From Atriophallophorus winterbourni (taxonomy: Eukaryota; Platyhelminthes; Trematoda; Plagiorchiida; Microphallidae): a stretch of 64,000 nucleotides of DNA. Positions 4,329 to 63,060 of this stretch are shown here, piece after piece. The notes under the pieces were generated by a model. It saw nothing but the letters and a program-made list of their open reading frames with translations. It searched no databases and was not told the origin of the DNA. The stretch lies in the NCBI GenBank assembly GCA_013407085.1, contig JACCGJ010002734.1:1-64000 (forward strand). The letters run 5' to 3'. Made by a program: the position numbers and the translations under genes. How positions within the stretch are numbered: position 1 is the stretch's first letter; each line of letters opens with the position of its first letter.

Positions 4329-4405
4329 GCATGCGGATCCTGTGCATACTGTCCCTATCTATGAGTGCAAACATCACGCTGAATAAAAATGGAAATGAGC
4401 ATTTT
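4329..4405 (+). mobile_element. Degenerate retrozyme-like repeat copy
   Basis: Contains the family landmark word ATGCGGATCCTG (4331-4342), the ACTGTCCCTA segment that forms the 5' strand of ribozyme stem I, and a GAGTGCAAACA remnant of stem II. The tail GGAAATGAGCATTTT matches the family. The catalytic box is damaged (CTATGAG in place of CTGATGAG) and the GAAA box is replaced, so this copy cannot encode an active hammerhead. Confidence 0.6.
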
Positions 4406-6402: not shown

Positions 6403-8736
6403 ATGATCCAGTTTGGCTTTATTCTTAGATTAATTTCATCCGTTCTCTTCGTCCCACCTACCAACGCCCTGGAGGATTCTAACAGTAAAAGGTTTATAAG
6501 AAGTGAAATATTAGAAGAATCGACCGCAGATACAATTGTACATGATATTCTAAAAACGTTGACCCAATATGCCAAGGAAAATGTAACTTATAGCAATTTC
6601 AAAATCATCGCTCATAGCCAGATGATTCAAAATCTGTTTCATATTGAAGAAAAAAGTGGGTTATTGAAGACGCGGCAACAGATTGATCGAGATAATTTGT
6701 GCAAAGATCGACGCTTATGCTGTGAATCCGGTGATGTGAACAAATTTTTCTCAGGCATTGAACTACCAACGACCATGCGAAAGCGAACGGCTGAGCACTG
6801 TGAATTGACTATGCGTATTATTTTTGAAAAGAGTGAACGGGATTTTTCGGAAAACAGCACTTTACAGCGAGCTGGCGTTGACTATGTGACAGTTTCCGTA
6901 AAAATAATCGATATAAATGATAATACACCAAGGTTCATTATTTCACGTCAAAAGCAATATGTTGATAAAAGTAGCAATCTTGTCTCCGTGAAAAACGAAT
7001 TGTTACCTGTCTATGAATTAGAGCTTGAAGAGCATATTTCTGATGGGAATTGCTTTCAGTTACCCGAGGCGGTCGATGAGGACTCAAAGATAAACGGGAT
7101 AAGTCAATTCATCTTAGAAAAACTGAGTGAACAAGAGCATTTCGCACTATCTCGCTACTACCAACCACATGTTGAATATCGGCCAATAAGTAACTGGCCC
7201 TTTGAATTATCTTCCAAATCCTGTCATTCATCCTATCCTCAGCGATATGAATTCTCAAATTCAGAATTCGAACTTTCCCAGCCATTCCTGAAAGTGGTTG
7301 GAACGATCGACAGAGAAGTTATTGAAGATTACTGGATGAAGCTACTTGCAATAGATGCTGGACTGCCTGAAAATTTAGTTTCCAAATCAATTTCGTCCAA
7401 CTTTCCCAAATCTTTACGACATACTGGAAGCGTGCTTATACACATTCGCGTGCGGGATATCAATGATCACATCCCCGATGTTCCAAGTAATCTTAATCTT
7501 GAGGTGAAAGAGGACGCACATCTTGGACAAATAGTTGGTACATTACAAGGCACTGACAAAGACAATGGAGAGAACGGTAATCTGCATTACTCATCTGACG
7601 AGAGTGCGCTGGGTTATCACATTCTCCCTTTTCGCATAAAAGCTGATACGGGTAAAATTATTGTTAGTCAAAAATTGGAAGCAGATAACGGTTTTAATGG
7701 AAAAGAGTTCAGCTTCGATATCATCACGAGTGATTCGGGCAAGCCCACTCCGAAAAGGGCCATAACACATGTCACGGTAAGAGTGATAAATGTTAATGAT
7801 GAGACGCCTGAAGTAAAAGTTGTTGATTTACAAAGTCGAAATAATCCGCCGCTTCCAAGTGTGATGGAAAACAAACCACCTGGTGAGTTAGTTGCATTTG
7901 TCACTGCGAGTGACGCCGATTCGGGAGATTACGGTGTGTTCCATTGCCGGACGGACAATTCTAAATTTGAACTGATCTCGTTGACATCACCCTCTACCTC
8001 GAATGTCGAACAACTCGAAAACTCACCGATTTTGAAACACGTTGCAACTGTCGTAGATTACAAATTAGTCACTGCAACTGTGTTAGATAGAGAAGCCTCT
8101 CCAACTGAACATGTAAAGATAATATGTGCTGATCACGCATCCATTCAAAACGAAATTCGAACCGGGAGCGCTGATTTCACGGTGACAATTCTCGACGAAA
8201 ATGATAATTATCCAACATTTTCAGCTGAAAAATTTGAGTTGAAAATATACGAAAACGAACCAATAGAGCAAATTATAACTGTATTCAACGTCACTGATTC
8301 GGATCAAGACTTAACATTTGACAATGTGAACCGGTTTTACCATAAGAGCCCCCGGTTTCCCAGTGATTTTAATAACAAGATTAGTCAAGCAATGCCAATT
8401 ACGCTGACACTCGATGCGATCGGTCAAAATTACTTTCGATTAGGTGCAACTGGTGGTGCTTTGTACACAACGAAACAATTAGACCGCGAAAAAACGCCCC
8501 AGATCGAATTCAACGTAACCGCAATCGATGCTGGAGATCCACCAAAATCTGCCACTGCTTCTGTCATTGTGACTGTCCTGGACAAAAATGATAATGCGCC
8601 ACGCTTTCAACCAGAATTATTGCAATTGGAAATCCTTGAGAATGTTTCTATGAACAGTTTTATGTTCAGTGCCGTGGCAACGGATGACGACGTTGGGATT
8701 AATTCAATGGTTACTTATTTCATGGAAGATTCACAG
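6403..8736 (+). CDS. Protocadherin, exon 1 (signal peptide, EC1 to part of EC6)
   Basis: This exon encodes the N-terminal 778 residues of a calcium-dependent cell-adhesion receptor at the plasma membrane. The ATG at 6403 is followed by a hydrophobic signal peptide (about residues 1-22, cleavage after PPTNA). Five cadherin repeats end in clear calcium-binding linkers: DINDNTPRF (about 170-178), DINDHIP (352-358), VNVNDETP-type (461-469), DENDNYPTF (598-606) and DKNDNAPRF (727-735). LDRE-type motifs recur between them. A sixth repeat starts before the end of the exon. The frame would run to a stop at 8827-8829, but a donor at 8737 (CAG|GTAAAA) splits it in phase 0, and the residues after 8736 lose all cadherin character. 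EC1 is cysteine-rich (KDRRLCCE). The large single exon for the ectodomain is typical of protocadherins. Confidence 0.93.
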
Positions 8737-9187
8737 GTAAAAAGCATTTGTTTCCGAATATGTTGCATGTCAAGATTGTATTTTTTATTTGATAGTGACA
8801 TGACTACTAAACATGACTGTCGAAAATGAGACTTGATACCTATGCTAAATGGACAGTTAGAAAGTATGACAGATATTTTAAAATGTCAAACGAAGGAATT
8901 TCAATGGGAAGGGCGATGAGGGCGATGACATATTTCAGATACTATTGGTTCCATTAGTTCGCATAATTTAATCGCAGCTCAAGGTCGCAATCACCCAATC
9001 TCACCCATGTACATTGAAAAGCGAATGGCGCTTGCAGAGGTTTCACTGTGTCAATCTATCCTGTCATTGGCCTAAAATTCTAACCTCATTTGTATTTTCT
9101 ACTTTAAGTATCTCTCAGTATCAATAACTGAAAATTCAACCATAGGCCGTTGAAGTGAAGCATGTAGGTGTTGTTTATTTCTGGTAG

Positions 9188-9325: not shown

Positions 9326-11739
9326 ACCTCAGTAATAATGACTGAAAAACGCTACTTTGTCAAATATCTCTAAGTATTTTTGATCTTACCAAAACGGTTT
9401 CTTACTATTCTAATTTAGCTGTTGTCACTAGGAACTTGTGGAATATTAAGGTGGTCATAATTCATGTAAATTTAACCTGGTTTTAGATGAAAATTGTTCG
9501 GACCCAATAAAATCATTGGTGTTTGTTTGACCATAAAATCGCAACACTACCGCCCGGACTAGTCTGTTTTTGCATCGGTTTTTGACAAGACACCCATACA
9601 ATACCCACAAACTACGGTTGATATTGTTTCGCGTCACAAGTCACTGACACTGATCATTCGCAACGATAAACGCTTTCACTTCTCGGTGTGTGTTGACAGC
9701 CGCCACTTCCGTGACGGTGAATTGTGGTGAGCTGAGTTGAAATTTCTGGATAGGGATTGCTGCGTCGGTCAGCGGCAGACACATTCAAAACCCCACCGCA
9801 GTCCATGTGTGCTTAAACAAGCGAATTATTTTGCGGTATGAAATGATCTTAAGTACTTCAACTGTAGATTAAACGGATATAATTTAAAAGTTGTTAATGC
9901 CATGTAGATCCAGTTGGTATCTGGGTGTCCAGCTAACAAATTAAAGTATTACCCAACTCAAAGAATGTAACAAGATTATACGTTTCACGATCTCATCATA
10001 TAGCAGCATTAGATGGCTTCAAATTTCTATTACATTTTATGCTTAGTTTTCATGACCTTTGGTAAATTTTGTTATATGTCTCCACACCAATATCCCAAAT
10101 AGATTTGGGAGTTGCATCTTGGTGAATTTTGATAACATACAAGGTAATACCGATTCGCGGGAATGTGTTCCATTACGAACCAACTCGGAAACTGTGAATG
10201 TAATATGCACATACGAATTCAGAGGGCAAGATAATGCTTGTACGCAGCTTATTTTAAACGTTCTCTTTGGTACCGACTGAGATGTGGATGTTTGGTTGCT
10301 TGATTAAACGTTGAAAGTTCTAACCGGTGTGATGTAGCGACCACCACTAACATATAAAAAATTACACTGGATTAATAAAGGGGAAGACACGTAATAGCGA
10401 AGTACGGCCATTAATGTAACCTGTGCACATTCAAGCAAAATAGAGCTTTATTGATCAGAGGAAACGATATGATGTTTAGGTAGGAACCGGATAATGTTAA
10501 AACCACGCAGTCCGAAAACTTCATAAAACCTAGATCATAACTGTTTGCTGAAGAGCTTGTTGCGATGAACGTGAAAACGAGCGCGTTATTTAAGCAACTT
10601 AGTACCGATAGCAAAAACGTTGAAGAGCGTTGATTGTTCAGAAATAATGCATTGCACATTAACAAGATTATATATAAGAAATATTAGAGTTATTGTGGAC
10701 TTAAGGTCGCAGAATTCGTGCAGCATCGTTCTCTCCATGTGCGACCCGACCATATGTATTTGAATTTCGGTTTTAGACAGTGAAAGCTGAAATTTATTGT
10801 TTTGTGATACAGAATGCAAATATATCAATAGGATCTCATTAGCACTAATTGTGAAAATATTTAGAAGTTTTACGAAGAGTCCATCATAAAGTCAATCGCT
10901 ACTAGAAATTTCACAACAATTACGAGCATTTCTTTCCAGTATGTAACTATCTGGAAACTATTTATAACGGATAATTTTGCCTATTAGAGCATTTATAAAA
11001 ATGTAAATAATATTATTTCAAACAAGCTAGAATTCTTCTAATCAATAAACTAAGTCCAGTGAATGAAAAAATGCTTCATCTTTGTTTACAGATCACGGAT
11101 TTTGACACGGTTCTAAATGTAGGTCAAACATCGACAAAACTTAAAGAAACAAAAATATTATTTTCAGAATGATTTCCTGATTTGAGAAAAAAGCTGTTAA
11201 GGTTTACTGGGAACAAAATTCACGGTGTGTGATCCCTGTATTTTGACAGACTCTCAATTTCATTTTGAAATTAACTGAATTTACTTGTTGAGAATTCCAT
11301 TCACGTTGGTGCATGTTCAATTGCATCGGAGAACAAACGTGTAATTATGTATAACTGTTTTGAGATGCACGATTCTAAGGAAATATAGGAAACTGGTTTC
11401 AAGTTGATTAAAATACATTAAGATAAATCTGGATACATGCTTTATGCCTAAAATTAAATAATTTTCACTTTTTTACAAAATACCTGACATTTTTCTGAGC
11501 ATTCGCAAATCTGAACCGTTTACGTTAGAAAGGGCAAACAGCTCAACAAAAACGATAAGATGACTGTTATTTTGCTTAGCTACGAAATTAATCCATAGAG
11601 AATGGTATAAAATATGCTTAAAATTGAAAATGTTTTAGCATTGTTGTTCTCACAACGTTGAAGCAGTAGCTGTGAGAGTAAAATAACGGATATTATGCAG
11701 CTTTTGATCTGAAAGGACATAAACATAAATTTCCAAAAA

Positions 11740-11925
11740 GTTGTACTTGTATGCCACCTTTGGTTAAGGACGGTAAGAACAACCTGTTCAATCACATGAG
11801 CCCACACTCATGTAGACAGGGTTTAAACCCATGACCATGAACGAAAAAGCTCATTTGCATGTATTTCCTTCACACACAAACCCCACGACCTGTTTCAGGC
11901 TGCTTGCACTCGTCATGTGAACAGG
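11740..11925 (-). mobile_element. Retrozyme-like repeat copy, minus strand, left arm of an inverted pair
   Basis: On the minus strand it reads from a decayed hammerhead (ATGACGA in place of CTGATGA, then GAAACAGGTCGTGGGG) through the family body: GTGTGTG, GGAAATACATGCAAATGAG, TTCATGGTCATGGGTTTAA, GTGATTGAACAGGTTG, then GGTGGCATACAAG. The first core nucleotide (C3) and stem II are mutated, so this ribozyme is predicted dead. The copy abuts a plus-strand copy at 11926, forming a foldback. Confidence 0.78.
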
Positions 11926-12130
11926 TTGCACTCATGTGATTGAACATGTTGGTCGTACCAGCCTTATCCAACAGTGGCATACAAGCACAACTTGCTTACC
12001 ATTCTTCCACTATTTCAAGCGCATGCGGATCCTGATCCGACTGTCCATATCTGATGAGTGCTAACAGCACGAAACCGGTCGTGGGATGTGTGTGAGTGTG
12101 ATGGAGATACATGCAAATGAGGATTTTCGA
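11926..12130 (+). mobile_element. Retrozyme-like repeat copy with intact hammerhead core, right arm of an inverted pair
   Basis: Runs from GTGATTGAACATGTTGGTCG through GGCATACAAGCACAACTT, CCATTCTTCCACT and GCATGCGGATCCTGATCC to the hammerhead, then GTGTGTGAGTGTGATGGAGA and ATGCAAATGAGGA. It is the best-preserved copy for the ribozyme. No ORF is present, so the repeat would be non-autonomous. It lies in sense orientation within protocadherin intron 1, and its ribozyme is listed separately. Confidence 0.85.
12043..12088 (+). ncRNA. Type I hammerhead self-cleaving ribozyme, all core nucleotides present
   Basis: CTGATGA occupies 12051-12057. A perfect 4-bp stem II follows (GTGC 12058-12061, loop TAACA, GCAC 12067-12070), then GAAA at 12071-12074. 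Stem III is minimal: A12074-C-C pairs with G-G-U12079 with almost no loop. The cleavage site is GTC, with scission predicted after C12080. Stem I is open-ended and partly formed by 12044-12050 and 12081-12087, weaker than the family consensus (CCCTAC against GTGGGG). Type I hammerheads with such a short stem III are known from Penelope-like elements and animal retrozymes, where cleavage is favoured in dimers. Activity is inferred, not shown. Confidence 0.8.
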
Positions 12131-12299
12131 TAATTTTTCAAAGTTATCAAAATATTACAATAATTTGACAGATTGAAAAACAATTTGTATTTTTGCGTAA
12201 TTTTGGTAAACTTCGAAGGTTTAATTTCCGATGGATTATTTGGATCACGCAGCAATCTATTTAATCAAAAGATGTAACATTTAAATATTATTTAGACAT

Positions 12300-12446
12300 T
12301 TTACGTGATTCCTAAACTGATCAGTAGGCAAACAAATCCCGTTTTACTACCTATGTTATTGGTAATTAGTATATTATTCTGTGGTTTTTGTAAAGCTATG
12401 TGCTTTTTGGACCATTAAATTGAATTGAGTTGAATTGAATTGAATT
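12300..12446 (+). mobile_element. Solo CR1-like LINE 3' end with GAATT-type pentamer tail
   Basis: Matches, in opposite orientation, the 3' end of the CR1-like element at 51155-52300: ACGTGATTCCTAAACTGATC, AGTAGGCAAACAAA, CCTATGTTATT, ATTCTGTGGTTTTT and AAAGCTATGTGCTTTTTGGAC, ending in repeated TTGAATTGA units. CR1-like elements characteristically end in short tandem repeats rather than poly(A). Only the 3' untranslated end was inserted here. Confidence 0.8.
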
Positions 12447-14039: not shown

Positions 14040-14415
14040 CGCAAAATAGATCATTTGCATGCATTTCCATCACACACAAACACTACACGAATGGTTTCTT
14101 TCTGATTGCACTCATCAGGTAAGGGCTATAGGATCTGGATCTGCATGCGCGCGAAACAGTAGAAGAATGGTAAATACGTTGCGCTGTATTCCATTGTTGT
14201 ATAAGGTTGGTACGACCTACATGTTCAATCACACCAGCCAAAACACATCTAGAATGGCGTTAAAACCATAATCATGAACAAAAATGATCATTTGCATGCA
14301 TTTCCAGCACACACAGCACGACCGGTTTCGTGCTGTTTGCACTCATCATGTAGGGAGAGTACGATGAGGATCAGTATGTGCTTGAAACAGTGGAAGAATG
14401 GTAAACAAGTTGCGC
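14040..14415 (-). mobile_element. Head-to-tail retrozyme-like dimer (period 237 bp)
   Basis: The block CATTTGCATGCATTTCC begins at 14052 and again at 14289, and each is followed by a hammerhead in the same (minus) orientation, giving a 237-bp repeat. Upstream unit (minus strand): stem II and III are perfect (GTGC-AAACA-GCAC, GAAACCGGTC), but the first box is ATGATGA at 14349-14343, lacking C3. Downstream unit: the box is intact CTGATGA (14118-14112), but stem II is lost (AATCAGAAA) and the cleavage side is changed. Thus each ribozyme is broken at a different place. Tandem units with one ribozyme per unit are what a rolling or multimeric retrozyme locus looks like. Confidence 0.85.
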
Positions 14416-21001: not shown

Positions 21002-21112
21002 CATTCTTCCACTGTTTCCTGATCCTACTCTCCTTACCAGATGAGTGCAAACAGCACGAAACCGGTCGTGGGTTGTGTGTGTGTGACAGAGATGCATGCA
21101 GATGAGCTTTTA
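21002..21112 (+). mobile_element. Retrozyme-like repeat, truncated copy with near-complete hammerhead
   Basis: Carries CATTCTTCCACTGTTTC, then skips the GCATGCGGA part to TCCTGATCCTACT, then the hammerhead with perfect stem II (GTGC-AAACA-GCAC) and GAAACCGGTCGTGGG, then GATGCATGCAGATGAGC. The first box reads CAGATGA (21039-21045), so the invariant U4 is lost and cleavage is predicted to fail. It ends less than 100 bases before the protocadherin exon 3 acceptor, in sense orientation. Confidence 0.8.
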
Positions 21113-23500: not shown

Positions 23501-23668
23501 AGTTTGGGCACGAAAGATACATTCAAGGAATTGATATCGGAAATAGATGGAGATTTCTCATTGTATTTTCCACAAATTTGCTTAGGCGCACGCCATAAGT
23601 GAGCACGGACTTTAGTGAAAAGAAGCGTATTTGAAACACCTACTCAGGTTAAATTGACTGGAAAAATT

Positions 23669-23840
23669 TCGTCGTACCAGCCTTGTCCAGCACTGGCATA
23701 CAAGCACAACTTTGTTTACCATTCCTCCACTGTTTCAAGCGCATGCGGATCCTGATCTTACTGTCCCTAACTGTTGAGTGCAAACAGTACGAAAACGGTC
23801 GTGGGGTGTGTGTGATAGAAATGCATGCAAAGGAATATTT
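23669..23840 (+). mobile_element. Retrozyme-like repeat copy with mutated hammerhead
   Basis: Runs GTCGTACCAGCCTTGTCCAG, GGCATACAAGCACAACTTTG, CATTCCTCCACTGTTTCAAG, GCATGCGGATCCTGATC, then the hammerhead and TGCATGCAAAGGAAT. The box at 23771-23777 is CTGTTGA, so the invariant A6 is lost. Stem II is GTGC-AAACA-GTAC (one G-U pair), GAAA is present, stem III has one change and the cleavage-site triplet is GTC with GTGGGG after it. The stem I strand CCCTAA/GTGGGG is slightly weakened. Predicted inactive. Confidence 0.82.
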
Positions 23841-24964
23841 TGGTGTGTATCAAAATTTGTCCTACATTGATAAGAAAAAAAGAGATAGCTTTAGAATTTA
23901 CTAAAAAATGACATCCAATAATGTGGAGAAATTAATGTGGTGCTAGGCCAATTTGAAGGCCCCGTGTAATAGCAGCTCCTCTGCATGAACTCAAACGGGA
24001 AAAGGGTGGTTATTCTTGGTCCACTGCATAGATATTAAAGGCAGACTGCAGATCTCCAGCAAGCATAAGATATCAAATATGTTTTCAAATTATATTATGC
24101 CTGAATTTAGTCCGGTACAATTTGTATCTATTGTGTATCCATTTTCGAAAAATACTGCTTTTATGTTGCCCAATTCTTACGAATTAATGTAAATTAAACT
24201 TCAACATTTTCGAGCGATAATAATACTGAAACACTTGAGATGTGCACCGTTTACTTAAACTCAAATCACGTTGTCGCGCAAAACACACTCCCTCCAAATA
24301 CGTGATGACTTCATTGAAACAAACTGTAATAAAAATCACGTAGATCGTTTTTACGAAATAGTGCATCCGTTTATGTTCTAAGCAACTCAAACGATTTAGC
24401 TGATAGATGTATATTCGCATTATTGTTGGCTTATTTTTTTAAACAATTAACTAAAATTTCGTTATGATCGAAATTTAGGGTGCTCACATATGATTATTCA
24501 GACTTCTTTAAATTTGTTTCTTCATCATCTTTTTTAAATTTCATTTTCTCTCAAAACGTGATTTTCTTAAATTAAAATTAAAAAAATTTATTTACAATAT
24601 TGTGAATATTTGTGAACTCTTTCTCACCCGAGATTATGTTCCGCCTCTCACGTTTAAAAACATAATTTGCATGATGTCTTTGAATTCAAGCATGCGTCGG
24701 AATGATTCCGCGATAAGCGTTTCATGAACATGGACCACTAAAGCTGAGTGATATTTAAAAAAATTTGTTGAGTGTGATTCTTATGATTGTCGCGAAAAAT
24801 AATTGGTTGAAAAATCCAGTTCTTTTCAAGCTACCGTGATCATTTAACAAATTATTCGACTCGATGCTGATCCACCGCAGTGGCACAGGACCTTCGACTC
24901 TCAATCATACGATCCAGTTTTACATCCCGCTAGTACTGCACAATTTAAGAAATGTGATTATACT

Positions 24965-27099: not shown

Positions 27100-27345
27100 A
27101 CTATTATGAGTCATGCGGATCCTGATCATACTGTCCGTGCTAGACAATTACAAACAACACAATTTTCCGTTATTTGTGATGTAAATGCAAGCAAATAAGA
27201 ATTTTTATTCCAGCCCATCGTTTGACTCATCAAAATGAGTGTATGCACGTGGATGTAAACGTTGGTCGTGTCAATCTTATCCAGCCATATTTTCAAACTT
27301 CAAACTTGTTTTTACCATTCCTGCACTGTTTCAAAGTATAGGGCT
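27100..27345 (+). mobile_element. Two decayed retrozyme-like fragments in tandem order
   Basis: 27108-27215 carries ATGCGGATCCTGATCATACT, GTCC and a badly decayed hammerhead (GTGCTAGACAATTACAAACA), then GTAAATGCAAGCAAATAAGA. 27261-27345 carries GTTGGTCGTGTCAATCTTATC, then TTTTTACCATTCCTGCACT and GTTTCAAAG. The order (ribozyme, body, next unit's body) fits the remains of more than one tandem unit. No functional ribozyme core is left. Confidence 0.6.
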
Positions 27346-27539
27346 TCTAATCCTACCATGGCGTCTAGGTTACGTTGAAAATTCCATAACAGGATGCACA
27401 GGTTTCTGACATGAAACTCTGGAATATCCTTTTAGGTAGACGCAATGTACGGCAACCATTATTATACACTGCGTAGCAATGTTGTCCCGGCTTGAGTTAA
27501 TATGACAATTAGATACCTAGAAATTTTCTGTGGTCGTCT

Positions 27540-37379: not shown

Positions 37380-37530
37380 GCACATCCCTGCACTTACACA
37401 CCACAACCGGTTTCTGACTGTATGCAGTAATCAGGTGAAGATAATGAGATAAATTCAGTGAGCATTGCAAAAGTGGAGCAGGGATAATCAAAGTAAAACT
37501 TTGAAACCAGTGTTATATAAGATCCAATAT
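37380..37530 (-). mobile_element. Decayed retrozyme-like repeat copy
   Basis: On the minus strand: CTTCACCTGATTACTGCATACAG and GAAACCGGTTGTGGTGTGTAAG. The box is CTGATTA (G8 lost), stem II is broken, but GAAACCGG and the T of the cleavage site remain. The rest of the body to 37530 is only faintly similar. Not functional. Confidence 0.6.
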
Positions 37531-37984: not shown

Positions 37985-39890
37985 GACCTGATTGTTTTTA
38001 TTTCCAATAAATTGAAGCGCCTCTGGAGACTGAAGGAAAAGGCTTTCAAAAATCTCGATCGTCACGCTGTCTCCCAGCTGTCTTTATCAATCAAGCTTGA
38101 GATTCAACGCATGCGAGATATATATTTGAAATCAATTTTGAGAACGAATAACAATCGTCAATTATGGAATGCGCTCAAAGGTTTGTGTGGCAAAGACAGG
38201 AAGGTACTTCCCTTTATCCATGATAATAATTCATTAAATGAATCTTTTTCATCTTCTCCTGATTGAACCCAAGAAATCACTGACTTTGTTTCACCCCCAT
38301 CCTCTTTTTCAACTCCAACTTTTACAAGCTCAGTGGAAGTTATACAGTCACTTTTCGCTGTATCTGGCTCAAACGCTGCAGGCCCTGATAATCTTTCCCC
38401 TCTTTTGCTGAAAGAATGCGCACAAGAACTTTCTTCGCCGATCTCATCTATCTTCAACAGATGCATTGAGAAAAGTATTTTTCCTGACTGTTGGAAGCCG
38501 GAACGTATTACACCAATCCCCAAAAATGATCCAGGGAAGTACCGCCCCATTGCGTATACGTCGCAGCTACTCAAAGTACTGAAACGTATAGTGCTACGAC
38601 GACTTGTTTGGAATTGTCAGGTAGAAGATTCGCATCAGTTCGCGTACCGCAAAAATCGTTCGACAGTAGACGCACTAGAGTTGCTAACTGACCATGTATC
38701 CCGGTCATTGGATTCGAAATCAAAAGCGGTGCAGGTTTGTTTTCTTGATTACACCAACGCTTTTAATAGTGTTATCAGAAGTTCTTTGCTCAAAAAACTT
38801 CATGATTGTGGTGTACCCCTGAACCTAGTTCACTGGATAGCGTCATATTTTACGGACCGCGTGCAGTATACTGCCACGAATATTAAAGTCTCCAATTCTG
38901 TAGCGATTTCTCGCGGTGTTCTACAAGGCGCAATACTTTCCCCTTCTTCTTTTCTATCTACATGTCTGATCTTCCTTGCTTTCATTCCACTATTATTCTA
39001 AAATATGCAGATGATGTTACTGTTGTTTTTGACCACCATAGACGTGCTGACTCTCGTACATCTGAATTCACTATCAATAACATTGGCCAGTGGTCATCCT
39101 CACTCGGCTTATCGTTAAATCGTCAAAAATGCAAAGAGGTAATATTTTCAAACTTTGCTGGTCAGCGTCGTCAAACTCTGCCTTCAAGGAATTCCCACGA
39201 TTTCCTTCCATGTCTCGAACTTCAGCAGAAGCGCACTATTCAAGTATCTTAGCGTCATTTTATCACAGAGTCTCAAATGGACCGATCATGTGACTGCACA
39301 GTACTTGAAGGTTAGAAGGTTATCATTTTACGCCTTACGTCTGCGTTCTTTAGCTGTTCCGCCTGATCTAGTTAGATGTTTTTTCCCTGCATTGTTCCCA
39401 TTTTAATCTACGCATCCCCTATAATTTTTCCTGGTCTTTTTGAAAAGGATGATCAGAAGAGGAATCAAATTAATTTCAAGATTGAGCTTTTCCTGTACCG
39501 AGTCAATTCGTGATATGATCGTCGAACGCCACTTTCGTGAATGTGACAGATTGGTCAGAGTCATATCGTCTGATAATGCACACTGACTGCATGAGGTTCT
39601 TATGGCTTGCAGATGGTTCCCTGTTACGCGTAGTCAACATATCGTCCCGTATGCAAGAACTGAGAAATCCAAAATTCTTTTATTCGTTACCTGGCTCGAT
39701 ATTTGGTTGATCATACAAAAGTTATTCTCGATTTGAGGAAGGAACTGACAGTATAATAACTGAAGTGGGATCATCCTTATTTGACATGTCTATTTTTAAA
39801 AATGTGCATTTTATTTCGTGTGATCGAATTAATAGTATCGCTGAAAATTCGTGTACTCGAATAAAGCCATTTTTCTTCTTCATTCAAGTA
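37985..39890 (+). mobile_element. LINE (CR1/Jockey-type) pol region, nearly full RT, pseudogenised
   Basis: Frames follow in order: 37985-38266 a linker region (LWNALKGLCGKDRKV), 38333-38970 the RT N-terminal part (AAGPDNLSPLLLKECAQ, DCWKPERITPIPKNDPGKYRP, HQFAYRKNRSTVDA, CFLDYTNAFNSV, SRGVLQGAILSP), then after a frameshift near 38965 the catalytic YADDVTVVFD (39004 onwards), and SLNRQKCKE. A third frame has LKWTDHV and LAVPPDLVRCFF. The catalytic residues are mostly present, but at least one stop (38264) and two frameshifts kill it. The 3' end is near 39885 (CGAATAAAGCC). No endonuclease is seen. Confidence 0.85.
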
Positions 39891-42974: not shown

Positions 42975-43140
42975 ATTTGTAAGAACCTTATATAATAGTG
43001 GCATACAAGTGCACCTTTGTTTACCAGTTTTCCACTGTTTTAGAGCTCAGTGAACTCAAACCTACTGCATTTACCTGATGACGGAAAACAGACAGAAAAC
43101 GGTTGTGGTTTGCAAATTAAGGGGATATGAGTATAACACT
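42975..43140 (+). mobile_element. Retrozyme-like repeat copy, stem II lost
   Basis: Reads AGTGGCATACAAGTGCACC, TTTACCAGTTTTCCACTGTTT and TACTGCATTTACCTGATGA. The box CTGATGA (43075-43081) is intact and GAAA survives at 43094-43097, followed by ACGGTTGTGG. The segment between them (CGGAAAACAGACA) can no longer form stem II, so the ribozyme is dead. The downstream ATGCAAATGAG tail is not recognisable. Confidence 0.65.
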
Positions 43141-46075: not shown

Positions 46076-46768
46076 TTAAATATCAACCTTAAAAGGCGCA
46101 TCTCAGACATACCGAGATGAAGAGCACTGTACTATTTTCAATGCCGACAAAATTGATCCACCGCTGAAATCGAAACAGCCTGATTAATTGAATGCCACTT
46201 CACAGCAGGAACTTGTGGTAACACGATTACTTCTCGGGAGAGAAGATGCATATGGAAGAAGATAGAAAAGCACGTACGGTTTCTCGGCATGGGGTCTCAG
46301 GTACGGTAACCTTCCATGTTTCGAATTTCTGGACGTAAGATTTTGATAAAATCCAAAAATTACATTGAAATATGTCTGGTTTTTGAAAAAAACATCAGTA
46401 ACTTACCATGTTGGGATGAGTTAAGACGTATGGCTTTTCACACCGTAAGGTTTCACCTGGCGAACTATCATTATATACTAAACCGTGGTAACCACTGATG
46501 ATTTACTATGAGGTGTGCACAGATTCATTGAACGCAAATTTTGCAACATCCCTAGAAATAAAACTGAAAATATGAAAAGTGGCCTAGTTCTAAAGTGTAA
46601 GATTCAATACTACAATTGAAAAGTGAAAGGATTTAACCTTTATTCGGCCAAGCGTAAATGAAAGAATTGGAATTGTCTGATGAAATTCACTGTGATAGCA
46701 AGATAATGATTTCAATGATGAAACTTTTCAGCGAGTATAAGTCAAAATGAAAAATATCAATCATGGTT

Positions 46769-47081
46769 TGTGCTTGTATGCCACTGTTGGTTAAGGTAGG
46801 TACGATCAACCTGTTCATTCGTATGTGCAAAAACATTTGTAGACGGAGTCAAACCCATGCTTATGAATGAAAATACTCATTTGTATGCATTTCCATCACA
46901 CATACCCAACGACAGGTTTCGTGCTGTTTGCAATCATCACGTAGTTATAGTAAGTTCAGAATCCGAATGCCTTGAGACAGTGAAAAAATGATAAACAAGT
47001 TGTGTTTGTATGCTACTGTTGGATAAGGTTCGTACGACTAACCTGTTCAATCACGTGTACAAACACATGCAGATGGGGTTT
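46769..47081 (-). mobile_element. Retrozyme-like repeat, more than one unit, left arm of an inverted pair
   Basis: On the minus strand: from 47081, a partial body (CATCTGCATGTGTTTGTACA, GTGATTGAACAGGTTAG, CCTTATCCAACAGTAGCATA), then CATTTTTTCACTGTCTCAAG and a hammerhead at about 46950-46905. Its box is GTGATGA (C3 lost), but stem II is TTGC-AAACA-GCAC and GAAACCTGTCGTTGGG follows. The body then repeats (GTGATGGAAATGCATACAAATGAG..) down to 46769. This is about 1.3 tandem units. Confidence 0.8.
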
Positions 47082-47190
47082 CAAAGCATACGAATCCTGT
47101 TCGTACTGCCCCTACCTGCTGAGTGCAAACGGTACGAAACCTGTAGTAGGGGGTGTGTGTGTGTGATGGAACTACATGCAAATAGATAAT
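47082..47190 (+). mobile_element. Retrozyme-like repeat, right arm of an inverted pair, strong stem I
   Basis: Starts GCATACGAATCCTGTTCGTA and reaches a hammerhead whose stem I is a perfect 7-bp helix: CCCCTAC (47109-47115) against GTAGGGG (47146-47152). The box 47116-47122 is CTGCTGA (A6 lost). Stem II is GTGC/GGTAC with a G-U pair, then GAAA 47136-47139, with predicted cleavage after A47145 (GTA, an allowed NUH triplet). The tail GTGTGTGTGTGATGGAACTACATGCAAATAG follows. Predicted inactive because of A6. Confidence 0.82.
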
Positions 47191-49346: not shown

Positions 49347-50349
49347 GACAAATTTAGATGTACAGCCGGGCACGATGTAGTTTCGATTGGTCAGCGATAT
49401 TATCAATGTGTTACAAAAATTTTGGAATGAATTCGTTAAATGAAGAAGCGCAATATAATTTAACCTATCGATAGGACATTTATTCATATACGAAATAAAA
49501 TGTGTTGTGGGTATTTCATAGAAAACAATCAAACATTTTTGTTACCGAAAAAGATGGTTTCAAAATTATTCGTCATATGTAGGGTTTTGCTTAGAAAAAG
49601 TTTGCATAGATTGAACTAATGTACGACGACGTAGATTATGTCTTCGATCTAGCAATTTCTTTCTTATTTGCTCATTTTTATGAAATGGCTATCATCTTTG
49701 CGTCGAAATAGCAACGGAAATTGATCTGTCTATAGAAAACCATGTAAATTGTTCTTATTCACCGCACATATTATTTGCGATTAGCTTGTTAAAATTTACC
49801 TTGCTCTATGATACTTGAACACGAAAGAAATTAAACATCAGTCTTATAAAATAACCGTCGCTATTATGTATTTATTGTCAAGTTACACCGAATTAAATTG
49901 ATTGTTCGTTTACAATAATAGCCACACTGACTAGCATAATTGGATCGTGTTTAAATGTTGATGGTTTTGAAGTCATTCACCGCGATCTCTGCGAAAGGTG
50001 GACGGTATTAAAATGTTTTTGTTCAATTTTCTTGCACATTAGATATCGATATATCAATTTGAATGTCGAAAGCCGAATGCATGTGCCAGCTTAATTTCAT
50101 CTTTAAACCAGGATAAAAGATTACAAGTGATTGATATAAAAAATTTGGTATCACCGTATTGATGGTAATTCTTTTCAGTTAGACGATTGTATGAGTTTGT
50201 TTGATAAAATAGTATCTCGATAGTATCTCGTTAGAGCCATATATATTTGAAAATCTATCAAGAATTCTATTGAAAAGCAGATGCATGGCCATTTTACGAA
50301 AAGTACTTTATTGAATAACTTTTGTAAAAAGAAACTAGAATCCGTATTT

Positions 50350-50545
50350 GCATGCGTTTCCATTGCACACACCACGAATGAGTCTGCGCGGTTTACAGGT
50401 AAGGTCAGTACGACCAGGATACGCATAACTTTCAACAGGATAAGCATGGTAAACACTCTTTACCATTGTATACCACTGTCTGATTGCATGGCACGACCAA
50501 CCTGTTCAATCAAATGTGTACCCGTACATGTGGATTGGTTGTATC
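50350..50545 (-). mobile_element. Decayed retrozyme-like repeat copy
   Basis: On the plus strand the landmarks are ATTTGCATGCGTTTCCATTG, CACACACCACGA, then TTTACAGGTAAGG in place of the hammerhead, then GTAAACACTCTTTACCATTG, TATACCACTGTCTGATTGCA, ACGACCAACCTGTTCAATCA and a TACATGTGGATTGG end. The body is well kept but the ribozyme core is destroyed. Confidence 0.7.
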
Positions 50546-51154
50546 CATGAGCTGGAAACATAAAATCTTTAGTTACCTGTATTTATATCAAGAACATCCA
50601 ATGGAGTCAGACCCATTCATGTATTTGTGAGACCATGTGAATTACAAGTGTGATCGTGTCAAAATCATACAACAATGTCTTGAGATTGTAACATCGTTTT
50701 GTCAAAGAGAGTTTTAATGTAGTTTATTGTTCTTCCGTATTTTGCATCAGACAGGGAATGATATCAAAACCAAATTTATACTGGAAATTATAACATGCTA
50801 CTTAAGATTTATTTTATGAAAACCTGGTGATGAAAATTTTAGCGTACAAAATCAACACCCAAAAATCAATCTGTTCAACATTCGTGTTCTCCAATCATAT
50901 ATGAATTATCGATCTAAAACAAGCTGGTTCATCCTGTTACACAAAAATCACCAAAATTCTGTCTTCAAAAATAACAAGGTAGCAGATCATTTGAATACTT
51001 TCCGTACAGCTACCCGTGCATCATGAACACAATCAAATGATTTATAATACGATGCCTTTTAATTCACGTCAAAAATGGCAATCAACTTTATATATGAAAT
51101 ACACGGTCACATGTACTGTAATTGTTTGGGCATGCTAAACACGACTGGAAATGA

Positions 51155-52300
51155 TTCAATTCAATTTAATTCAATTTAATGGTCTAAAAAGCACATAGCT
51201 TTATAAAAACCACAGAATAATATGCGAATTACAAATAACATAGGTAGTAAAACGGGGTTTGTTTGCCTACTGATTAGTTCAGGAATCACGTAAAAATACA
51301 TAGAGCAGAAATTGTTTTCAACCGGTTTGATAGGGTAAATATGTATAGTTTACTTGGATGCATTGGTTCAAAGCTTTATGATGCAGAATATATTGTTTCA
51401 ATGTTTGGATTGGTCGACATGAAGTTGTCCAAGTTCGATTTGAATATATCCAAGTTGGGTGAATGTGCAACGTTACGGGGTAGGGAGTTCCAAGTAAAAC
51501 ATACACGTACAGAATAAAATACCTTCGACAGTTCAGCCTCGAGTCGGGAATAAGTACTGTATAGTTATGACTCCGGCTTGTTCGTGGTGGTAGTCGTGTG
51601 AATAGTTGATTCAGGGGATGGTTGTGGGTATGCAGTATATTGAACATAAGAATCAAGTCGCCTCTAAGACGGCGGTAGCGAGAGTCGAAGAGATTGAGGC
51701 TTGTAATCCGATCTTCGTATTGTTTATGTTTTAAACCACGTACGAGCTTGGTGGTCCGATGATATATTCTCTGCAAGAGGCTGATGTCCTTCTGTAGCCA
51801 GGGTGACCAAGCCTGAACCGCATACTCCATGGTTGGCCTCAAGTACGTATTAATTATTCGATGAACAGTTTGCTTCGTGAAACTCCCGAACACGCGTTTA
51901 AGAAGAAGCAGTACTCGCGACGTCTTTTCATAGACAGCTGTGGCGTTATGCGACGGTTTCAACGTGCTGCTTACCCACACACCCAAGTCCTTCTCCTTGT
52001 CAGTGCTTTCAAGAATATGGGAACCAAGGGTGTAAGAGAACTCAAAATGTCTTCCAACAGTCAATACCTTGCAAGACCTTTGACTACACCATCAATAATT
52101 TGCCGCATCTGTTGTAAGTGAGGACGAAACATGGGGATTATTGGACATGAGGGTGGTGAGAGATGCTTCATTTAATGCAGTCTTTAATAGTTCAAAAGAT
52201 ATAACCTGATCAGCATTCATTTTAAGTTGACACTTAGTTCCGCGTGACAAATCATTCAACGGTTGAGAGACGTTAGCGCAATTCGGAATAAATATTCAAT
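51155..52300 (-). mobile_element. CR1-like LINE, post-RT region and 3' end with pentamer tail
   Basis: Minus-strand frame 52064-51318 is open for 248 codons: KEKDLGVWVSSTLKPS, VFGSFTKQTVHRIINTYLRP, MEYAVQAWSPWLQKDI, LLQRIYHRTTKLVRGL, RYRRLRGDLILMFNIL and SRLNCRRYF, all standard for the C-terminal domain of CR1-like pol. It is the longest intact LINE frame in the window. RT pieces upstream (52070-52300) are broken. The 3' end at 51155-51182 is a TTGAATTGAA-type repeat, identical in type to the solo end at 12300-12446. Confidence 0.9.
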
Positions 52301-60659: not shown

Positions 60660-63060
60660 GAACATGCATTCAAACAAGTTGCGTGAACGAGTAGAGCGAC
60701 ATCAGTATGGCACCTTCCTTGCGGCTTTCACTGTCATGCATCACAACAAGCTTTTCTCGCCACTGCGCTTGACGCATGCAAGGTTAAGCAAACACCAAGA
60801 AGATGCTTAGTACAAGACCGCCATTGAAAACTGTTTCGGGACATATCCTGAAGCGTAACTAGCCATTGCGATATCTGATCGCGGTGACACCAGTCAGAAA
60901 GACGCGCTGCGCTAACTCTGGAAAGGTTAATAGTAAGGGTTTTTAACTGCCTATGCCATGTGACGGTTTGGCCGCCCCGAGATTTACGCCAATCAGAATG
61001 TGGCATTGCAAAAAGAATCCATTTCGGAAGTCGGTGGTCCGGCATCCGTAAAACGTCATCCAACCAGCTTAACCTATGCAGGTTGATCTGCTTCTCTATA
61101 TCAATATTACTACCGAACAACTTATTTCTGAGAGCATCGGTACGTTTGCGATTATAACAGCTAACTCCTAAAATGTTGCGGAGACATCGGTTGTCAAATA
61201 CTTGGTGACGCTGGATGTGTTCTTTACGTACGGTCCAGGTTTCGCACCCATACAGTAACACAGCCCGAACTGTCGCTTTATAGACTCTACCCTTGAGTAA
61301 CAGAGACAGTCCTTTCTGGCGCCAGAGGTGACCTGGGTTGCGGAATGTTATGGTAGCTTTAGAAATGCGTGCCGAGACCTCTCCGTCAAACGATGCAGAA
61401 TTATTGATACAGCTACCGGAATACGTAAAACGATCTACAATTTCAAGCGCCTTATTGTCAAGTAATAAAGTGCTGTTTGATAAGTCGATGTCCTGCAGCA
61501 GAACACTGCACTTAGAGGGTGGAAAACGAATTCCAAATAGGGGCACAATACTAGCTACCTTGTTCAGTATCGCCTGTGCATCTGTGTACTAGTCGAAGAG
61601 CAGAACTATATCATCAGCATAGTCCAAGTCAAGAAGCTTGCCGCCTGGCATTATGTGAACTCCGAAGGCTGGTCCTCCTTCGTTGCATAATTCCATGATG
61701 GCATCAATTGCAAAATTGAACAAAAACGGATAAATCGGACATCCTTGTCGGACGCCACTTGTGGTGTGGAATTTGGGTGAGAGTTCGTTGTAAACCTTAA
61801 CACATCCAGATGCATGAGCATAAAGTGAACGTAGTATGTTGACATGCTTTTCCGGAACGCCTTTGCACAGCAAAGTTTTAAACAGGACATTTCCATCGAC
61901 TGAATTGAATGCTCTTTTGAAGTCTAAAAAGATGGCTATTGTCGGGTGTCGATAAGTGTACCGCAGTTCTAAGATCCGTCGAAGAGTAAAAATGTGGTCG
62001 ACACAGCCTCTTATTATTATATATTTATTATATTTGCACAATCTGATACAGATATAGTGCCGTTCAACATAAACAATGAGATGTACAAAGCAAGAAGGGG
62101 GGACGAAGCGTTGTCATCGGCATCGTTGAACGTAGGCATGATACTACCCGGTTGCCTACACCGCCGACACAGCCTCTGCCAGGCCGGAAGCTAGCTTGCT
62201 GCTCTCGGATCTGTGATTCCCTATGCGATGTTGATCTTCGAAGATATGTGGACGCTAATAATCTCGTAATGATGGGAGTGAGACTTATCCCACGGTGGTT
62301 AGAGCATGAGCTTCACATACCTTTTTTTAAATATAGGTATGATAACCAATTCGCCCCAACAGATTCTGACAAACACACTTCACGGAAGAGATCGCCTAAT
62401 GTGCTGATTAGGACTTGGCCAACTTTTGAACAAAACAGGCGTTATGTCATCGGGGCCAGCAGCTTTGCATCGTTTCATGGATTCGATACATGCGTTAATT
62501 TCTAAATCATTAAGGGGATCTAAGCTAACAGACCAAGGGTCACACTGCTGCAAATGAGGGAATGATTCTGTTGCAGGCGAGCAGCTGAATTGTTCTTCGA
62601 AATGTTCGGCCCAGCGTGAAAGGCGGCGATTCTTATCAGTGATAAGAGTACCGTCTATTTCAGCGATAGTCTCACTCACTCCTTTTTTCGTAGGCCCCGT
62701 CGACCGAATAAGTTGGAAGAGTTTGCTATTTCCATTTGCTCGACCTTATTTAGCCACCACTTTTCTCTGCCTAGTCTTAAGCTCCGTTTAAGTTCATTCC
62801 TCACGCGTCTACGCTCTGTATTGTGTCCTGGACCATGAAGTATTTGGCGTCGCTGGTGAAGAATTTCTATAGAGCCCTGTGAAATCCAATGCGACTTTTG
62901 GGTTGCTTGTGTAGTCTCACAGGCTGTTATTGCGGGGGCTCGCTCAATCTCTGCTATTTTGTTCCACCTTTCGTTGGCAGTTGCACAATGAGCAACTGGG
63001 AGTGAGTTACTCAAGGTAGTCCGACAAATGTCTTGAACTGCAGGCTGAAAAATTTTTTCG
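60660..63060 (-). mobile_element. RTE-like LINE, nearly complete RT and C-terminal pol (pseudogenised)
   Basis: Minus strand, in order: 63014-62676 a pre-RT region (KSHWISQGSIEILHQRRQIL), 62679-62380 (RRLSRWAEHFEEQFSCS, KRCKAAGPDDITPVLFK), a broken stretch, RT core 61996-61592 (RRILELRYTYRHPTIAIFLD, FKRAFNSVDG, SGVRQGCPIYPFLFNF, LDLDYADDIVLLFD), and C-terminus 61546-60734 (GCETWTVRKEHIQRHQVFDN, INLHRLSWLDDVLRMPDHRL, WRKSRGGQTVTWHRQLK). The catalytic YADD is intact. A stop after 61589, a frameshift near 62380 and an insertion at 62012-62164 disable it. No endonuclease is seen. Confidence 0.88.
62012..62164 (-). mobile_element. SINE-like insertion with 13-bp target-site duplication, inside the LINE RT
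   Basis: The 13-mer CGACACAGCCTCT occurs at 61999-62011 and again at 62165-62177, directly flanking about 153 bp that interrupts an RT frame that is otherwise continuous across the 13-mer. Read on the minus strand the insert begins GCGGTGTAGGCAACCGGGTA and ends in an A/T-rich tail (AATAAATATATAATAATAA), the layout of a short retroposed element. I see no tRNA-like A and B boxes with certainty. Confidence 0.75.

Follow-up and report, generated by a model that had tools for sequence, protein, structure and literature searches.

Does the short sequence at 12051–12080 of the window belong to a ribozyme, and if it does, how did the repeat that carries it multiply? By the window we mean the whole stretch of DNA that was analysed, 64 kb in length. 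Our preferred reading, to which we assign a probability of about 0.7, is that the repeat is a retrozyme with a dimer-type hammerhead, and that a reverse transcriptase (RT) of the kind found in Penelope-like elements (PLEs) initiates at two sites, X and Y, copying onto one or both strands of the target.

The hammerhead copy in the window

On the plus strand, a hammerhead core with all its parts in the type I arrangement, CTGATGA-GTGC-TAACA-GCAC-GAAACCGGTC, occupies positions 12051–12080 (Table 1). Cleavage is predicted after C12080, which makes 12081 the new 5′ end and agrees with the position given in the first-pass annotation. The sequence was scanned with a descriptor that asked for CTGANGA and GAAA, four or more base pairs in stem II, a short stem III and no fewer than 4 of the 6 stem I pairs. 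The site at 12051 was its sole match in the window, and none of 60 random sequences of window length, generated with a first-order Markov model, gave a match.

The core had been called intact, and this holds for the core itself but not for stem I, where CCAUAU/GUGGGA retains 4 of the 6 pairs formed by the consensus CCCUAC/GUGGGG (2 are lost). The energy of the hammerhead fold is +4.7 kcal/mol for the window copy vs −6.7 kcal/mol for the consensus, and both have a better non-hammerhead fold as monomers, at about −15 kcal/mol. When 12030–12100 was folded alone, no hammerhead appeared and the stability was ordinary (z −0.58); a monomer is not expected to hold the structure. No Rfam family reached its gathering score over the window, and the copy itself obtained 15.4 bits from Hammerhead_HH9 only, the gathering score of which is 52. 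With stem I damaged, this copy is probably a weak ribozyme. A clear target duplication was not seen around it.

Table 1. Positions of the hammerhead elements and of the family copies in the window
Feature	Position	Strand	Basis
Hammerhead ribozyme core (CUGAUGA, stem II GUGC/GCAC, GAAA, ACCGGU, C17)	12051..12080	+	Sequence, descriptor scan, family alignment, Rfam HH9 below cut-off
Stem I, 5′ strand CCAUAU (consensus CCCUAC), damaged, 4/6 pairs with 12081–12086	12045..12050	+	
Stem I, 3′ strand, first bases 3′ of the predicted cleavage site	12081..12086	+	
Plus arm of composite copy, unit positions 89 to 45 via the ribozyme, outer end X	11931..12127	+	
Minus arm of the same head-to-head copy, outer end Y (unit position 154)	11735..11918	−	Inverted repeats, family matches
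Tandem family copy, more than one unit, ribozymes decayed	14043..14415	−	
Short family copy with ribozyme region (CAGATGA), end at X	21017..21111	+	
Family copy, end at X, core CTGTTGA	23668..23842	+	
Second head-to-head copy, minus arm, outer end Y (148)	46768..47057	−	
Second head-to-head copy, plus arm, outer end X (36)	47078..47183	+	
Diverged family copy (75%)	42984..43108	+	
Diverged family copy (70%)	50346..50538	−	
Diverged family copy (68%)	27112..27356	+	
Diverged ribozyme region of the family	37389..37445	−	
Family fragment, ribozyme side	4329..4378	+	

About a dozen sites with the same ribozyme position had been reported for the window. The family unit matches ten sites, which makes this a fair estimate, but the descriptor accepts only that at 12051, and in the other window copies the ribozyme region is decayed or partly missing. 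Elsewhere in the window, at 6403–8829, there is an 808-codon open frame of protocadherin type, for which the matches listed (vertebrates and some flatworms) are 23–30% identical.

The repeat family and its consensus ribozyme

The 537-Mb assembly contains 14,698 matches to the core consensus of the family when up to 3 mismatches are allowed (0 for a reversed-pattern control), and 3,450 exact ones; no exact core was found in IMG/VR. A genome search that included the flank returned at least 72 places, the best 40 of 3,950 candidates being scored. For further analysis, loci were taken around flank matches (39) and around exact cores (30, with 4 dropped as overlaps), and another 20 as well as 16 held-out loci were added. 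L002–L008 (the same as L041–L047) and L053, L064, L065 and L073, which overlap their neighbours, were dropped before unit mapping. The duplicate loci L010, L028, L031, L038 and L039 were removed from the end-class and motif counts only.

The unit is non-coding and measures 233–238 nt, close to the 237 nt estimated at first. Cutting between successive ribozymes gave 76 complete units (66 of them 230–240 nt long), and two main variants can be told apart, mostly by differences at unit positions 10–95. Copies stand singly, form short tandems or build long arrays such as L078, with 25 recognisable cores spaced 230–235 nt apart or at roughly multiples of this distance. The family had been described as AT-rich, which is contradicted by the G+C content of its two consensuses (0.475 and 0.455 vs 0.374 for the window). 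That it is dispersed, non-coding, retrozyme-like and equipped with a hammerhead is supported, and no frame of at least 100 aa crosses the window copy at 11735–12127.

The ribozyme region was matched 100 times in 40 sources (39 loci and the window), which yielded 85 distinct regions that span the core. A simple pattern recognised the complete core in 44 of them; 75 were aligned, the other ten being omitted by eye as broken or shifted. The resulting consensus is CUGUCCCUAC-CUGAUGA-GUGC-AAACA-GCAC-GAAACCGGUC-GUGGGG, in which stem I has six pairs and stem II has four, and the palindrome ACCGGU takes the place of stem III. Because a loop of zero bases cannot close, stem III within one molecule amounts to a single A-U pair and a CCGG loop. 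Between two ribozymes, six pairs form, and the computed energy of this duplex is −8.3 kcal/mol. The conserved core CUGANGA...GAAA...UH and the three type I helices are present in the window copy and in the consensus, helix III only as the dimer palindrome. A near-loopless stem III, noted from the beginning, is indeed seen, but its earlier designation as a minimal monomer form fits less well: the palindrome appears better read as a dimer-forming helix III, like that of newts and the axolotl, than as part of a working minimal monomer.

A search with the Rfam hammerhead model had been proposed as a check. It gave nothing at the gathering score in the window, and in the loci the best copies scored just below the cut-off. 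With Hammerhead_1, copies in 4 of 6 loci reached 32.9 bits (E 8.5e-5), and those in the other two 29.0 and 28.6 bits. No copy in the six loci attained the curated cut-off of RF00163 (34 bits), so annotation at this cut-off would have missed all copies examined there.

These results bear on whether the resemblance to a hammerhead at 12051 might be accidental and the repeat unrelated to it. The damaged stem I and the sub-threshold Rfam score of the window copy speak for an accident, but the 60 random sequences without a match, the six stem I pairs of the family consensus and the E-value of the relatives make it highly improbable.

Of 975 cells in the designed ribozyme stems, 87.7% are paired vs 30–53% for slid controls. 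Compensatory change in these stems shows no excess (4 cells vs 4.4 in shuffles), which is expected if copies decay after insertion, yet lends no positive support. Two hairpins outside the ribozyme are paired in 91.4% of cells in 47 units (chosen from 72 units of at least 222 nt, with duplicate loci and most L078 units left out). They carry 23 double-sided changes vs 8.7 in shuffles, a number that 0 of 500 shuffles reach. It has to be kept in mind that 16 of the 23 cells are a single UA/AU swap, largely inherited within a subfamily and not 16 events, and that kinship alone can push related sequences above such shuffles without any structure. Taken with this caution, the outer hairpins suggest that the whole unit acts as RNA.

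RNAalifold gave 13 pairs only for the 47 whole units and no strong common structure. Folded as circles, units exceeded random sequences moderately in stability (z −2.1 to −2.5), and the opposite strand did so to the same degree. Polymerase III boxes were sought by eye, and internal T-runs speak against them. A long hairpin at L012:1509–1750 was matched to archaeal SRP RNA (62 bits) and a microRNA family (42), both below the cut-off; it is probably just an inverted repeat.

Copy ends and head-to-head pairs

We mapped 126 family clusters in unit coordinates that start at the predicted cleavage site. The 3′ ends of 89 direct copies (duplicate loci excluded) fall mostly at site X, at unit positions of about 36–58 (53 copies), with 6 at site Y (about 146–162), 20 at a GT tract, where alignments break and ends are fuzzy, and 10 elsewhere. 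In the held-out set of 16 loci, 10 of 11 direct copies end at X by our by-eye reading. The 5′ ends scatter, with clusters at 1–18 (22/89) and 160–190 (24/89). Starts at 1–18 could be taken as starts on cleaved RNA; given the fuzzy GT tract and the 24 copies that start at 160–190, we do not rely on them.

Identical words of at least 8 nt stand at both ends of 29 of 92 direct copies (duplicates included) vs 4.5% for re-paired flanks, although at least six of the 29 are repeat-internal by eye (four L078 pieces, L021 and L056). With words of at least 10 nt, the numbers are 19 of 92 vs 1.3%. There were 34 clusters with end words of at least 9 nt, six of them internal by eye. Target duplications are seen in many copies and vary between 8 and 15 bp; together with fixed 3′ and variable 5′ ends, they are marks of target-primed reverse transcription. 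Copies of about 110 bp in L049, L054, L058, L061, L076 and L089 start at 163–180, end at X and have clean duplications.

Both sites follow a common motif: GCATGCAA stands before X and GCATACAA before Y, and each unit consensus has exactly two occurrences of GCATRCAA. It is carried by 33 of the 68 outer ends of 34 clusters, and 30 of the 33 lie 8–16 nt past it; at the 5′ ends of direct copies it is not expected. The motif and word counts also took in 5 held-out loci out of 16, selected because their ends were clear, and 4 passed. As the motif is part of both X and Y, its presence at 33 ends amounts to a single coincidence between two sites, not to 33 of them. The chance that two sites without any relation have such a motif in common at a similar offset is, as a rough estimate, 1–4%, which is suggestive only.

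Both orientations were found within 32 clusters. All of these are minus-plus, that is head-to-head, and none is plus-minus. Among the 30 that remain without duplicate loci, 17 have one end at X and the other at Y (XY), one is YY, none is XX and in 12 at least one end lies elsewhere; some of these 12 break at the GT tract and others are unexplained. When the ends of the 18 clusters with both ends in X or Y were re-paired, the observed 17 XY had a permutation p of 0.00026. Two opposite-sense pieces in L108, 460 bp apart, were counted as two copies. The held-out loci contained four inverted clusters, all minus-plus, of which three were read by eye as XY and one has an end at 118. Both inverted copies in the window, 11735–12127 and 46768–47183, are of the XY type.

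Copying from two RNAs should yield XX and YY copies as well. Their near absence suggests that a single RNA served for both arms, with a separate site for each. The arms cross the cleavage junction, and the template RNA would therefore have been a circle or an uncleaved multimer. Arms that run through the ribozyme junction are no proof of circles, as an uncleaved multimer would give the same sequence.

Could the family have been amplified as DNA, as a satellite or as a DNA element of the foldback or Helentron-like kind that merely inherited a passive hammerhead? Long tandem arrays (L078), head-to-head pairs reminiscent of foldback elements and ribozyme stems without covariation would all agree with this. 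On the other hand, duplications of a variable 8–15 bp and the combination of fixed 3′ with scattered 5′ ends are in keeping with target-primed reverse transcription, the hammerhead of the consensus is complete, with its core present 3,450 times in exact form, and hairpins outside the ribozyme covary. We consider amplification at the DNA level improbable.

Candidate partner enzymes and known retrozymes

According to the reading that we prefer, multimeric transcripts would be cut by the type I hammerhead into units of 233–238 nt. As helix III needs two ACCGGU sequences paired with each other, the ribozyme would work as a dimer. The units would be ligated into circles and copied by an RT that belongs to an autonomous element, most probably a PLE. 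This enzyme would start internally at X, at Y or at both, each time after GCATRCAA, primed by cut target DNA. Extension of a single primer would yield direct copies that range from part of a unit to several units, and extension of both target strands on one RNA would yield a head-to-head copy with one X and one Y end. XY head-to-head copies require that both strands be extended. More specifically, a PLE-type enzyme might dock on one RNA circle at the two GCATRCAA motifs, so that both cut strands prime, at X and Y, and give the head-to-head pairs; we put this forward tentatively, at somewhat less than even odds.

A purified PLE protein was found to initiate at two internal RNA sites and to extend both target strands in vitro, and the ribozyme of the anole PLE was dispensable for insertion in vitro (PMC11167929). 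PLEs were proposed in 2020 as strong candidate partners of animal retrozymes (PMC7229834). A review of the same year describes the repeats of animal retrozymes as lacking a conserved motif that would point to an autonomous partner (PMC7761336).

The genome has at least 17 matches to GIY-YIG domains, the endonuclease type of PLEs, above the Pfam cut-off (the best 150 of 1,370 candidates were scored). In L115 and L116, a GIY-YIG frame is followed by other retroelement-like sequence (confirmed by Pfam in L115). Downstream of a further GIY-YIG domain, in L117, we found by pattern and by eye a hammerhead-like sequence with the palindrome ACGU; likeness to other copies stops there 0–45 nt past the presumed cleavage site. 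Rfam reported no hammerhead in L115–L117 at E up to 5. GCATRCAA is absent, on either strand, from 5.3 kb around these three GIY-YIG places, so the link to PLEs rests on mechanism and not on a shared tail.

Two observations were made at these loci in passing. L117:236–269 and L047 (reverse strand, 1171 of the reverse complement) hold PLE-like minimal hammerheads unlike that of the retrozyme, with a stem II beginning GUCAUC and, in L117, the palindrome ACGU as stem III and then an AC-rich stretch. L115:1446–2099 and L116:1427–2101, both on the minus strand, have a common GIY-YIG frame and then, in the same orientation, sequence that looks Gypsy-type by eye; this seems to be a chimera that has been copied.

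An RT of the LINE type (CR1 or RTE kind) might instead have moved the family by ordinary target-primed reverse transcription, with the head-to-head copies as products of classical twin priming. Target duplications of 8–15 bp would suit such an enzyme, and the window itself has RT frames that are LINE-type by eye, one matching Pfam RVT_1 (38267–38998) and one RT-related (60737–61588); relatives of the latter include proteins of Opisthorchis and Clonorchis. Twin priming by LINE-1 yields inverted 5′ parts. Its second site, however, would be expected to vary, whereas most ends here lie at the same two sites after the same motif, and we know of no LINE tail in common with X or Y. We regard a LINE-type partner as rather unlikely, though it is the less remote of the two alternative modes of amplification.

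A repeat with 93% identity between its copies lies at 12299–12440 and 51154–51295 (−) of the window. It has a (TTGAA)n-like tail and adjoins an RT-like frame at 51318–52091, which had no Pfam match. Perhaps this is the 3′ end of a LINE just downstream of the retrozyme copy.

As a class, such elements are known, and by its sequence the family appears to fit the animal non-LTR retrozymes. These are described as non-coding tandem repeats of 150–450 bp with a type I hammerhead, a G+C content below 50% and target duplications of more than 4 bp, occurring as dimers to long multimers in thousands of copies, and platyhelminths are among the hosts named (PMC7229834). Here, too, we find tandem repeats within 150–450 bp, G+C below 50% without coding sequence and duplications longer than 4 bp, and we noticed no LTR, primer binding site or polypurine tract. 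The loopless palindromic helix III differs from the stable helix III of most invertebrate retrozymes in that account, the available text of which neither describes fixed X and Y ends with head-to-head XY copies for animal retrozymes nor names a fluke lineage other than schistosomes (PMC7229834).

The closest parallel for the ribozyme is HHR_Amex1 of newts and the axolotl, in which helix III consists of one pair and a self-complementary tetraloop and becomes stable only when two ribozymes pair; as dimers, the repeats of the axolotl cleave much better (PMC7229834). The family differs from it in its tetraloop (CCGG) and the rest of its sequence, in unit length (233–238 nt vs about 330) and in its flatworm host. 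Stem III is palindromic in newts, and the same has been suggested for other animals, e.g. Aedes (PMC3088659). Going by their descriptions, the Sm-alpha and Sj-alpha elements of schistosomes are similar in being type I hammerhead repeats of flukes that are SINE-like, non-autonomous retrotransposons (PMC8490949, PMC6155905), and very high cleavage rates are reported for the Sm-alpha ribozyme (PMC6155905).

PLEs with minimal hammerheads, such as PAc of Anolis, resemble the family in the minimal stem III, the tandem arrangement and the short tail, as well as in two internal initiation sites and extension of both target strands, which are read here from copy ends (PMC11167929). In contrast, PLEs encode an RT and a GIY-YIG endonuclease and the unit codes for nothing, the PAc initiation sites are adjacent and X and Y are about 110 nt apart (PMC11167929). 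Stems II and III of the unit also differ from the PLE-like hammerhead of the same genome (L117).

As for the host, contig C6618, which at 33 kb is long for a mitochondrial genome, carries a COX1 gene whose sole interruptions are TGA codons and which is open in the flatworm mitochondrial code. This gene is 80% identical to that of Prosthogonimus cuneatus, at most 72% to those of other named digeneans and 67–70% to those of schistosomes. Together with the fluke relatives of the RT frame, these identities make the host a non-schistosome digenean, provided that C6618 is the host's. Further COX1 matches (C4859, C4746, C8922, C10138, C15234, C11485 and C4773) are mostly broken by TAA or TAG and are probably mitochondrial DNA copied into the nucleus (or else foreign sequence).

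In the open-licence literature, we found no report that connects retrozymes with twin priming, none of a hammerhead in Trichobilharzia and, in a limited search, no described retrozyme in non-schistosome digenean flukes. The first-pass suggestion of an undescribed retrozyme family in this lineage stands to that extent: the family is retrozyme-like and no description of it in such flukes turned up in that search, but its class is known. What is new within the literature searched is, most of all, the pattern of two-site head-to-head integration; the host lineage and the presence of a dimer-type ribozyme without a loop in a retrozyme of flatworms are new as well.

The family provides a large set of hammerheads, the best examined copies of which fall about 1 bit below the Rfam cut-off, with a newt-like and probably dimeric ribozyme in a flatworm. 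As regards the enzyme that moves animal retrozymes, two fixed ends, a common motif and XY copies make a directly testable prediction. If the proposed two-site mechanism is true and general, retrozymes would parasitise Penelope-like elements, and their integration would be distinct from LINE twin priming.
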